A DNA stretch of 64,000 nt from Amycolatopsis sp. NBC_01480 (lineage in GTDB: Bacteria > Actinomycetota > Actinomycetes > Mycobacteriales > Pseudonocardiaceae), in contig NZ_CP109442.1 in the NCBI RefSeq assembly GCF_036227205.1, positions 7,440,001-7,504,000 on the forward strand, in the 5' to 3' direction. Shown here piece by piece: positions 10,401-63,076 of the stretch (positions within the stretch are counted from its first letter, which is position 1; each line of letters starts with the position of its first letter). The translations under genes and the position numbers were made by a program. The notes under the pieces are model-generated. The model was not told where the DNA came from. It did not search any database and saw only the letters and a program-made list of their open reading frames with translations.

Positions 10401-13400
10401 TCAGTGGGAGAGTTCGTTGTCGATGAAGGCGAACATTTCGTCGTCGGATGCGGTGGCTGTGTCCAACGCCGTGGTGTCGGCTTCGTCCAGTGTGGACATC
10501 ACGCGCTGGAGCCTCGACTTCAGCTCGGCTCGTCCGGCTTCGTCGGCGGTGCCGAGGGTTTCGTCGAGCGCCGCCAGCAGGGTTTCCAGCGACAGCGACA
10601 GCGGTGCCGAGGTTTCGGGCGTCAGCGCCGCGGCCAGTGAGCCGGCCAGGGCGGCCGGGGTCGGGTAGTCGAACGCGACGGTTGTCGGCAGGCGCAGGCC
10701 GAAGACCGAGCCCAGCTCGTTGCGCAGTTCCACCGCGGTCAGCGAGTCCAGGCCCAGGTCCAGCAGGCCCGTCTCGGCGCCGATCCGGGTGGCGTCCTGG
10801 TGGCCGAGCACCTTCGCGACGATCGAGCGGACCTTGTCGAGCACCAGCGGCAGCCGTTCGGGCTCGGCGGCCGCGGCGACCGACTCGGCGAACGACGGGC
10901 CGCCGGCTGCCTGCGCGCGTTTCGCCGGAGCCTTGACCAGGCCGGCGAACATCGGCGGCAACGTCCCGGAGCCGGCCTTTTCCCGCAGCAGCGCGGAATC
11001 CACCGGCGCGGGCACCACCACCGGATGCCCGCCGGTGAGCGCGGCGTCGAGCAGCTTCAGGCCGTGGCCGGGCTCGATGGCGGTCAGGCCCAGCGAGCCC
11101 AGCCGCGCGAGGTCGGCCGCCGAGAGCGCGTCGCCCATGCCGTCGCCGTCCCACAGGCCCCACGCCAGGGAGACCGCGGGCAAGCCGAGGCCGGCGCGGT
11201 GCCGGGCCAGCTCGTCGAGGAACGTGTTCGCGGCCGCGTAATTGGCCTGGCCGCCGGTGCCCAGCACCCCCGCCACCGAGGAGAACAGCGCGAACACCCG
11301 CAGGCCGAGATCCCGGGTGAGTTCGTGCAGATGCCAGGCGGCGTCGACCTTCGCGCGGGTCACGCGGTCGAACCGCTCCGGGGTGAGTGCGCCGATCGTG
11401 CCGTCGTCGAGCACGCCCGCGACGTGCAGGACGCCGAGCAGCGGCCGTTCCGCGGGCACACCGTCGAGCAGCGCGCGCACGGCGTCCCGATCGGCTGCGT
11501 CACAGGCCTTCCACGTGGCTTCGGCCCCGAGCTCGGTCAGCTCTCGCACCAGCTCGACGGCCGCCGGGGAGTCCGGGCCGCGCCGGCCGGTGAGCAGCAG
11601 GTGCCGGGCGCCGTGTGCGGTGATCAGGTGCCGGGCGGTCAACCGGCCGAGCGCGCCACCCGCGCCGGTGATCAGCACGGTGCCCGCGGACAGGTCGAGT
11701 TCGCCTTGGGGCACGCGCAGGCGGGTCAGCCTCGGCGTGGCTGCCGCGCCCTCGCGCAGCCTCGCCTGGAAGACCTGTGCGTCGAGCAATCCGGGCAACG
11801 CCCGCAACGACTCGGTGGTGCCGTCCAGGTCGACCAGACCGAAGTTGCCCGGGTTTTCCGTTTCCGCACTGCGGATCAGGCCCCACAGCGCCGAACCGGC
11901 CAGGTCACCGCCGGTCAGCACGACCAGCCGTCCGGTGCCGGGACCGGCCGCGAGCCACGTCTGCGCCGCGGCCAGCAACGCGTGTGTCCCGGCCCGGGTC
12001 GCGTCGACGACATCGGATTCCGCCGGCGCCGCAACGTAAAGCAGGTCCCCGGACCGGCTCGGCTCGGTGGCCAGTGCCTCGGTGACGTCCACGTGCGTGG
12101 CCACTTCCCAGCCGATGGCGGTGGCCGCCGCGGCGAAGACCGCCGCCCCGGGGCCGACGGCCACAAGCGGCGCCGCCGGTGACTCGGGCAGCGGCTGTGG
12201 CACCCAGTCCAGGCCGAGCAGGCCCGGGACCGAAGCGTTCATCGCGGCGGCGTCCGGCTCCCGCACGGTGAGCGCGTCGATCACCGCGACCGGCGAGCCG
12301 CCGCGGTCGGCCAGGTGCAGCTGGAACGTGTCCGTCCCGGTCGGCCGCAGGCGCACGCGCATCGAGGTCGCGCCCTCGGCGAAGACCCGGATTCCCGACC
12401 AGGAGAACGGAAGCCGGACGGTCCCGGCCTCGGTGGCCGCCCGGGCCAGCGGGTGCAGCGCCGAGTCCAGCAGCGCGGGGTGCAGCACAAAACCGTCGGC
12501 CGCGGCGGGGGCCTCCTCGGGGACCGCGACCTCGGCGAGCAGGTCGTCGCCGTCGGCCCACAACGCGGTGAGCCCCTGGAACGCGGGGCCGTAACCGTAG
12601 CCGTGGTCGGCGAGCCCGGCGTACATCCCGTCGAGGTCCACGGCGGTCGCGGTCGGCGGCGGCCACTCGGTGAGGGACTCCGCCGGGAGGTCGTCCTCGC
12701 CCAGCGCCCCGGTCAGGTGCCGGGTCCACCCGGTCTCGCCGCTCACCGGGTCCGGCTGTCCGGAGTGGACGGTGACGGCGCGCGAGCCGTGCTCGTCGGG
12801 CCCGGCCACGGTCAGCCGGATCGGGACGCCGCCGGTTTCCGGCAGCAGCAACGGAGCCGACAGGATCAGCTCGGTCACCGATGCCGCGCCCAGCCGGGCC
12901 GCGGCCCACGCCGCGAGATCGGCCATCGCCGCGCCCGGCACCAGCACCGAGCCGCCGACCGCGTGATCCGCCAGCCACGGGTACTTCTCGAGTGAAAGCT
13001 CCCCGGTGAAGACCGTGCCGCCGTCGTCCGGCAGCTCCAGCGCCGCGCCCAGCAGCGGATGGTCGACGGTGCCCAGGCCCAGCCCGGCCGCGTCGGCCGG
13101 CACCACCTGGCTGTCGATCCAGAAGCGCTCGCGCTGGAACGCGTAGGTCGGCAGCTCCGCCCCGGCCCCGCGGCCGAGGAACCCGGCCCAGCCGACCTCC
13201 GCGCCACGCAGGTGCGCCGACACGACGGCCGTGGTCGCGGTGACCGGTTCCGGCCGGTCGCGGCGCAGCAGCGCGGCGGCGTGCACCACGGCGTCGTCCG
13301 GCAGGCAGCCGGCGACCGCGCCGGTCAGCACCGCGTCCGGCCCCAGCTCCAGGAACCGGGTGACGCCCTGGTCGTGCAGCGCCCGGACGGCGTCCAGCAG

Positions 13401-62252: not shown

Positions 62253-63076
62253 CGGCCGTCCCCCTCGCGACGCGCGCGAAGTCCGTGAACCTGCCGGTCG
62301 CCGTCTGCCTGGCCATCCTCGGCGTGCTGGTGCTGGTCGTGCTGTTCCCGGGGATGTTCACCGCGCAATCGCCTTCGGCGACGGACTTCTTGCACACCTT
62401 CGAAGGCCCGAGCTTTTCGCACGTCTTCGGCACCGACCAGCTCGGCCGCGACGTCTACGCGCGGGTGGTTTACGGGGCCGGCGCGTCGCTGAAGATCGCG
62501 ATGAGCGCGACGGTGATCGGCGTGCTGGGCGGACTGGTGATCGGGGCGCTCGCGGTGGCGGGCGGGCGGTTCGCGGCCGGCCCGCTGATGCGGCTGGTCG
62601 ACGTCCTGCTCGCGTTCCCGGAGATCGTGCTGGCGCTGCTGGTGGTCGCGGTGATCGGCGGCGACGCGGGCGGGGTCGCGATCGCGATCGGCATGGCCGC
62701 GGTGCCGAACTACGCGCGGCTGGTGTACTCCCAGGCCCGGCTGGTCGTGCTCGCCGAGTACGTGGAGGCGGCGCGGGTGGTGGGCGCGCGCCGTTCGGTC
62801 GCGCTGGTCCGGCACGTGGTGCCCAACATCGCCGGCCCGCTCGTGGTGCTGGCCACCCTGGGCACCGGGACGACGATCATCTCCGCGGCCGGGCTGAGCC
62901 TGCTCGGCCTCGGGCCGGCGCCGCCCGCCCCGGAGTGGGGCCTGATGATCGCCGACGGCAAGGACTTCCTCGGCATCGCGTGGTGGCTGACCGTGTTCCC
63001 CGGGCTGAGCGTGGTGCTCGTGGTCGTCACCTGCACGGTGCTGGGCCGGACACTGAGGGTGCGGGCGCAACGATGA
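62249..63076 (+). CDS. ABC transporter permease (DppC/OppC type)
   Basis: This is a 275-aa second permease subunit. The GTG at 62249 overlaps the upstream stop, and its own stop overlaps the ATPase start. Features are a first transmembrane helix (VAVCLAILGVLVLVVLF), HVFGTDQLGRDVYARVVYGA (characteristic of DppC/OppC), the EAA loop EAARVVGARRSVALVRHVVPN and a final membrane helix. It forms the translocation pore with the DppB-type protein. Confidence 0.94.
   Translation: MTAVPLATRAKSVNLPVAVCLAILGVLVLVVLFPGMFTAQSPSATDFLHTFEGPSFSHVFGTDQLGRDVYARVVYGAGASLKIAMSATVIGVLGGLVIGALAVAGGRFAAGPLMRLVDVLLAFPEIVLALLVVAVIGGDAGGVAIAIGMAAVPNYARLVYSQARLVVLAEYVEAARVVGARRSVALVRHVVPNIAGPLVVLATLGTGTTIISAAGLSLLGLGPAPPAPEWGLMIADGKDFLGIAWWLTVFPGLSVVLVVVTCTVLGRTLRVRAQR

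Follow-up and report, generated by a model that had tools for sequence, protein, structure and literature searches.

In this study, we analyzed a window of 64,000 nucleotides from the 10.1 Mb genome of Amycolatopsis sp. NBC_01480 (G000:C1:7440001-7504000; positions below are those of the window), in which a tetronate polyketide synthase (PKS) cluster reaches from position 10401 to the right edge. Probably, the cluster is of the tetrodecamycin kind and specifies a decalin-tetronate with an altered chain; its four PKS proteins would act in the order PKS1-PKS2-PKS3-PKS4, and its product would be a decalin of the formula C20H26O5. For comparison, we mainly used the Streptomyces genome G721, whose cluster was taken as similar to the tetrodecamycin cluster (ted) on the basis of a homologue 74% identical to the cyclase TedJ, and whose modules appear to fit the chain derived from the structure of tetrodecamycin. 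Enzyme activities, starter unit, stereochemistry, timing and product are predictions from the sequence throughout.

Gene content and borders of the cluster

By codon-position GC content and Pfam matches, four PKS proteins and 18 further genes were found between position 10401 and the right edge of the window, and the frames of the PKS genes were backed by codon-position GC. Pfam matches and motifs assign to PKS1 (10401-22349, minus strand) a loading AT-ACP with a YASH motif and the extension modules M1 and M2, each KS-AT-DH-KR-ACP with the HAFH motif for malonyl units. PKS2 (32720-39064, plus strand) was read in the same way as M3 (KS-AT-DH-ER-KR-ACP, YASH, methylmalonyl) with non-consensus DH motifs. 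PKS3 (39108-49058, plus strand) comprises M4 (KS-AT-KR-ACP, HAFH, malonyl) and M5 (KS-AT-DH-KR-ACP, YASH, methylmalonyl). Pfam matches and motifs further define PKS4 (49094-52336, plus strand) as M6 (KS-AT-ACP, HAFH, malonyl), which has no reductive domain and closes with the ACP without a thioesterase, as expected when tetronate formation releases the chain. The motifs of the DH and KR domains of M1 and M2 and of the ER and KR domains of M3 are normal. The KR of M4 is of the A type, since it has the Trp and no LDD, the features by which KR domains are typed, and its catalytic residues are in place. This agrees for the loading module and all six extension modules with the module-by-module reading and AT motifs given in a preliminary description of this DNA.

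The accessory genes comprise the tetronate-forming functions as well as regulators, transporters and oxidases. On the minus strand, PKS1 is followed by a type II thioesterase gene (22517-23302; PF00975, E = 5.8e-29), whose start was set at the Met of the MTAADSP stretch, and by a stand-alone glyceryl-ACP of 75 aa (23299-23526, minus strand) with the Ser in NSLHLL, whose frame overlaps the thioesterase open reading frame (ORF). The latter gave no Pfam match at 1e-3 and was assigned by six-frame reading and by its counterpart in G721, a short ORF beside FkbH. The adjacent gene (23523-25415, minus strand; start picked by eye, open frame extending to 25643) encodes an FkbH-type glyceryl transferase/phosphatase over the cut-off of TIGR01686 (E = 6.9e-82). 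On the plus strand follow a large LuxR-family (LAL) regulator (25671-28499; PF00196, E = 6.5e-18), a SARP-type activator (28842-29621; PF03704) and a KAS III-like tetronate-forming synthase (29705-30748), for which 5by7 is the best solved relative (E = 1.3e-119; runner-up 1.8e-29). They are succeeded by an E2-type acyltransferase with an intact HxxxDG motif and a predicted Agg4/AbyA4 role (30712-31560, plus strand; PF00198) and by an AbyA5-type eliminase, the predicted former of the exocyclic methylene (31557-32624, plus strand; AbyA5, PDB 5no5, E = 3.1e-93). The set of FkbH, ACP, KAS III, E2 and hydrolase genes named in the preliminary description is hence present.

Downstream of PKS4 and the putative cyclase gene treated below, an MFS exporter of the DHA2 type (53955-55673, minus strand; PF07690), a TetR regulator (55547-56236, plus strand; PF00440), a luciferase-like oxidoreductase of the MsnO8 family (56375-57436, minus strand; TIGR03558, E = 1.4e-118) and a cytochrome P450 as candidate TedH-like oxidase (57525-58748, minus strand; PF00067) are encoded. 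The remaining genes lie on the plus strand and specify an F420-type luciferase-like protein (58874-59680; TIGR03621, below the family cut-off), an ABC transporter solute-binding protein (59677-61314; PF00496), two ABC permeases (61107-62252 and 62030-63076; both PF00528), whose true starts are probably at ~61311 and ~62249, respectively, and a double ABC ATPase (63073-64000; PF00005).

This last gene is cut by the window edge and runs on to ~64656 in the genome, so that the cluster extends beyond position 63076, where it had been thought to end. The left-flank SDR/TetR pair (8996-10394) is 81-83% identical in four of 40 genomes (own genome among the 40), namely G136, G153, G123 and G132, of which only G136 has an A5 match, on another contig; the left border was put at 10401 because the pair is conserved in genomes without an adjoining A5 match. 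The right flank (~64685-66001) is 74-75% identical in two of the 40 genomes. With flanks on both sides conserved in other genomes, the borders are probably at ~10401 and ~64656. Just beyond the left border, a further P450 gene (7771-8991) encodes a protein 50% identical to the cluster P450 and 48% identical to the P450 of G721, vs 46% for the cluster P450. It was considered as TedH counterpart and rejected, as similar P450s are common in the relatives searched and the gene adjoins the SDR/TetR pair conserved elsewhere.

Predicted cyclase and correspondence to a ted-like cluster

Directly after the last PKS gene, the gene 52362-53876 (plus strand), an addition to the preliminary description, encodes an FAD protein. 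Its best solved relatives are ChlE3 (E = 4.7e-98), TedJ (7.3e-92) and Tmn9 (3.6e-78), followed by rifampin monooxygenase (1.5e-71) and PyrE3 (8.5e-70; sixth, and fourth in another search), and over the aligned part it is 47% identical to TedJ, 45% to ChlE3 and 40% to PyrE3. TedJ forms the trans-decalin of tetrodecamycin in vitro, and seven of its pocket residues (H74, L77, S208, A210, R218, R262, R358) have been named (PMC12380092). These sites read H, L, T, A, R, R, R in the window, six of the seven being identical and Ser208 being replaced by Thr. In an alignment of 73 rows, two pairs of which represent the same gene, the pattern HL[S/T]ARRR occurs only in TedJ, locus L183 and the window, with HLSARRR in TedJ and L183; ChlE3 has HHTGRRR and PyrE3 HHMARRR, and seven FAD paralogues from the window's own genome read otherwise. 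A FastTree tree placed the protein in a clade of 32 rows with ChlE3, PyrE3, TedJ and Tmn9 (local support 0.98). All rows of this clade carry an A/V-I/V/L-N motif, and two columns on, at the monooxygenase Arg column as defined within this alignment, Arg is present in 0/32 clade rows vs 39/41 other rows. A loss of NADPH-related arginines was noted for Mad10 and Tsn11 (PMC7489565). By its grouping with characterised cyclases apart from the monooxygenases, its TedJ-like pocket and the missing monooxygenase Arg, the protein is a predicted [4+2] cyclase of the TedJ/PyrE3/ChlE3 class and the putative trans-decalin former. A scan of genome contigs with the FAD protein alone found no relative.

With TedJ (query letters from a PDB alignment), matches at E <=1e-90 were obtained in 15 of 392 genomes sampled from the genus Streptomyces, the best in G721. 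Around it, 100 kb of G721 encode a loading AT-ACP with M1-M2, M3 (DH-ER-KR), M4 (DH-ER-KR), M5 (DH-KR, methylmalonyl) and M6, together with KAS III, E2, A5, FkbH, ACP, FAD cyclase, P450, luciferase-type, ABC, SARP, LAL and MFS genes. The module and gene comparison with the tetrodecamycin kind, proposed earlier as a check, could thereby be run against a ted-like cluster. The protein split LM-M1-M2 / M3 / M4-M5 / M6 (LM, loading module) is identical in both, and besides the ACP, 15 accessory genes of the window are matched in G721 at 34-63% identity: FkbH 63%, E2 60%, KAS III 57%, luciferase-like protein (LLM) 53%, SARP 49%, A5 and cyclase 48% each, permeases 47% and 47%, P450 46%, thioesterase 44%, MFS 43%, solute-binding protein 41%, second luciferase-like protein (LLM2) 39% and LAL 34%. 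For the TetR gene at 55547, no counterpart was found in G721, and the two clusters deviate from each other in gene order and strand at some points. M4 of G721 is split over two overlapping frames in the DH-ER region (G721:C1 ~5423716-5424371, L200), by an assembly error or a real break. The genomes G608 and G662 were also examined as relatives and gave no FkbH/KAS III match in the stretches examined; G662 has equal-score TedJ-like matches near both chromosome ends (G662:C1:111708 and 9692195, L184), which suggests terminal inverted repeats.

Tetrodecamycin and 13-deoxytetrodecamycin are likewise tetronates made with an FAD-dependent [4+2] cyclase and a P450 (PMC12380092). The window and the ted-like cluster are alike in the malonyl DH-KR modules M1 and M2, the methylmalonyl DH-KR module M5 and the bare M6. 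Taking the ted side from G721 and the compound structure, the window differs in a presumable C3 instead of C2 starter, methylmalonyl instead of malonyl at M3, KR only instead of DH-ER-KR at M4, and a loading AT of another type. Instead of features for an acetyl starter and an unsubstituted, saturated C6-C9 tether, YASH in the loading AT, methylmalonyl specificity in M3 and KR only in M4 were found, and therefore the cluster would be a variant and not that of tetrodecamycin itself. As read from its domains, it is of the same kind as the ted-like cluster of G721 with three chain changes, in starter, M3 extender and M4 reduction.

An AbyA5-type protein, searched for in 390 family genomes and by a pattern-limited scan of named genomes, was found in 30 of the 390 (own genome included) and at no fewer than 77 named loci. 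Homologues outside actinomycetes occur in Phaseolibacter flectens (L142, 36%) and Prodigiosinella confusarubida (L159, 25%), and a plasmid of Methylosinus trichosporium OB3b carries an AbyA5-type hydrolase (38%); this match also covers an annotated FAD-dependent monooxygenase, the pair possibly forming part of a tetronate pathway outside actinomycetes.

As fallback, the preliminary description had offered an abyssomicin-type spirotetronate, in which the diene adds to the exocyclic methylene. The tetronate core is indeed shared with abyssomicin clusters (aby/abm), AbyA5 is the closest solved relative of the hydrolase, and the regulators and transporters of the aby cluster are similar to those of the window; its module pattern is different, which counts against a spiro ring. 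PF18678, which we take to be the AbyU/VstJ-type barrel family, gave no match over cut-off in the window's own genome (best 16.8 bits, inside a 5409-aa frame elsewhere) or in G721. By comparison, 20 of the 30 AbyA5-positive family genomes (own included) and 9 of the 12 genomes of a second set had a match over cut-off; G721, G413 and G662 were the negatives of the second set. Positive controls included S. abyssomicinicus, A. kijaniata and Actinocrispum wychmicini (the last in both sets), presumably all spirotetronate makers. The lack of an AbyU-type barrel over cut-off speaks against a spiro ring and a decalin-type cyclase is present instead, unlike in aby; we regard the spirotetronate as very improbable.

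Polyether tetronates (tetronomycin, tetronasin, tetromadurin) share the tetronate core with the window as well, and their PKSs are far longer. Tmn9, Tsn11 and Mad10 are PyrE3-like, and these pathways also need a VstJ-like cyclase (PMC7489565). Such a cyclase was not found over the PF18678 cut-off in the window's genome.

Two further clusters were observed in the course of these searches. Actinocorallia sp. API 0066 (L242-L247, G417:C43:180001-300000) has a longer tetronate cluster, in which a loading KS-AT-ACP (probably KSQ) is followed by eight extension modules, the last four with DH-ER-KR, DH-ER-KR, DH-KR and no reductive domain, and which also encodes two FAD cyclase-like proteins, LLM and solute-binding protein; it looks like a decalin-tetronate cluster with a longer unsaturated tail, yet a barrel gene lies ~100 kb away on the same contig. 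In Lentzea kentuckyensis (L220, L216, L217, G241:C224), a PKS end is accompanied by FAD cyclase, LLM, P450 and a PF18678 barrel, and one module is KS-AT-DH-ACP with no KR detected.

Order of the PKS proteins and atypical domains

As PKS1 is encoded on the opposite strand, the order of the proteins cannot be read from the gene order alone, and the alternative PKS1-PKS3-PKS2-PKS4 has to be weighed, in which the methyls would stand 1,3 to each other and the enone would be lost. PKS1 and PKS2 have C-terminal docking stretches of the DDE(M/L)F type, from which that of PKS3 (ADALLRFID) differs; at the N-terminus, PKS4 has LVEYL vs LREYL or LRDYL in PKS2 and PKS3. The same distinctive M5/M6 pairing, with no DDE(L/I/M)F at the C-terminus of M5, exists in G721 (ATEILDLID with LVEYL) and in Lentzea G241 (TVDLLDFID with LVEYL), the latter having one more atypical docking pair of its own upstream. 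Given the handover from PKS3 to PKS4 and the loading module on PKS1, PKS1-PKS2-PKS3-PKS4 is the sole order using each protein once. The docking ends thus favour this order, which would place the alpha-methyl enone opposite the diene, and with the identical protein split in G721 the other order appears highly unlikely. KS phylogeny was tried as a test of module order and discarded as uninformative, since KS domains cluster by strain, those of M3 and M6 of the window being sisters.

Several findings weigh against a tetrodecamycin-like decalin, among them this missing phylogenetic test of the order. The cyclase tree places the window protein closest to an Actinocorallia protein and to Streptomyces G707 and Lentzea rows, not to TedJ. 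Of the 30 tetronate-positive family genomes, 10 are likewise without a PF18678 match over cut-off, and the lack of this barrel is therefore not sufficient evidence for a decalin. Moreover, while the domain content is as earlier described, three domains taken there as normal are atypical, and because of these motifs the exact structure can be given as a prediction at most.

Firstly, the loading AT has GASQG in place of GHSxG besides YASH and the extender-type Arg, and thus appears extender-like. Of 184 distinct other ATs in the loci gathered, 177 were readable by pattern, all with GHSxG and none with GASQG, and 7 were unreadable. G721 has a loading AT of a different type, with Trp at the extender-Arg column and FPVH instead of YASH; Arg and Trp at this column separate extender from loading ATs. 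A literature search on this rule brought up no usable passage.

Secondly, the DH of M3 has Ser for Gly of HxxxG (71 Gly, 16 Asp, 2 Asn, 1 Ser and 1 gap in 91 other DHs) and TG for GP of YGP (Gly in 90/91 and Pro in 86/91 of the others). If these changes to HxxxS and YTG, in an otherwise conserved set of DHs, left the domain idle, a C9 hydroxyl would be retained without ER action and the [4+2] reaction would still proceed, leading to C20H26O6. As the catalytic His and Asp are kept, an ER with intact cofactor motif follows, and M3 of G721 is DH-ER-KR as well, we consider an idle DH a minor possibility.

Thirdly, the KR of M5 has Ala at the catalytic Ser column and retains Tyr, Lys and Asn. Among the loci gathered, Ser is found at this column in 103 of 107 other KR-like domains and in all 93 with Lys and Tyr in a PKS-type site (93/93), the remaining 14 being degenerate or not PKS KRs. 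Ala is present in one other row, L180, where Lys, Tyr and Asn are missing too, so that Ala with these three residues kept was seen only in M5. With a dead KR, the C5 ketone would stay, no C4=C5 dienophile would form, and the FAD protein would act elsewhere. The rarity of Ala and the degenerate state of its single companion speak for this possibility; against it, degenerate KRs have mostly lost Lys and Tyr, both present in M5, and the FAD cyclase keeps the TedJ pocket. In addition, a metazoan FAS mutant, S2014A, still performed reductive elongation and only a Ser/Tyr double mutant was inactive (PMC12856111), S2014 being located 13 residues before Tyr as in M5. Judging from this analogy, the KR of M5 is expected to work, yet the case for the dienophile is weakest at this domain; its inactivity is rather improbable, more so than that of the M3 DH. 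Independently, the KR-like domains of L187, L189, L190, L191, L173 and L180, beside Tmn9-like FAD genes, share a degenerate site (Lys->Ala, Tyr->Gln, Asn->His) and are probably inactive.

Predicted pathway, product and relevance

For the tetrodecamycin-like route, a C3 starter would be taken up by the AT-ACP loading module and extended along PKS1-PKS2-PKS3-PKS4 by malonyl, malonyl, methylmalonyl, malonyl, methylmalonyl and malonyl units. The resulting chain would bear an ethyl-capped C10-C13 diene, a C8 methyl, a C7 hydroxyl, a C4=C5 alpha-methyl enone and a C3 ketone. Diene, four-atom tether and enone, as already proposed, follow from domain content and docking, with the M3 DH and the M5 KR as atypical contributors. 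FkbH and the small ACP would produce glyceryl-ACP, and the KAS III protein would release the chain as a 3-acyl tetronate; acetylation by the E2-type protein and elimination by the AbyA5-type hydrolase would then yield the exocyclic methylene. Diene and enone would be joined by the FAD protein in an intramolecular [4+2] reaction to a trans-decalin, C20H26O5 ([M+H]+ 347.1853). Afterwards, the new alkene is probably oxidised by the P450 with closure of an ether bridge, in the way reported for TedH in tetrodecamycin, which would give C20H26O6 (363.1802).

The count of 20 carbons is made up of three from the starter, 12 added to the chain by the six extenders, two methyl branches and three from glycerol. 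It agrees with the core of the TedJ substrate, C18H22O4 as deduced from O-methyl compounds (PMC12380092), to which CH2, CH2 and O are added to give C20H26O5 (346.1780). A second P450 hydroxylation would lead to C20H26O7 (378.168, computed). Mass alone cannot separate the product of an idle M3 DH from the P450 product, since both are C20H26O6.

A more far-reaching proposal is that the extra C7 hydroxyl joins the ring closure, e.g. onto the exocyclic methylene or the C3 ketone, instead of the tetrodecamycin epoxide route alone. In that case, a dienophile made by the serine-less M5 KR and an extender-type GASQG loading AT would contribute to a new C20 ring system; we consider this combination unlikely. 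The decalin-tetronate scaffold, including the other starter and the extra methyl expected in the preliminary description, is well supported as a prediction from the cyclase, the correspondence to G721, the docking ends and domain counting, the exact molecule being deduced from these.

No other AbyA5-type protein more than 51% identical was present in the other 389 family genomes or among the named-locus matches listed. A plain rediscovery of a known product therefore seems unlikely among the genomes searched. A literature search on Amycolatopsis decalin tetronates brought up only a tetramic acid review and fungal-cluster work.

Tetrodecamycins are active against drug-resistant Gram-positive bacteria (PMC12380092). 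The distantly related pathway described here, with its altered chain, provides a target of defined mass as well as a new FAD cyclase whose predicted substrate is bulkier and oxygenated. It also allows a natural test of whether ketoreductases of PKSs can work without the catalytic serine.

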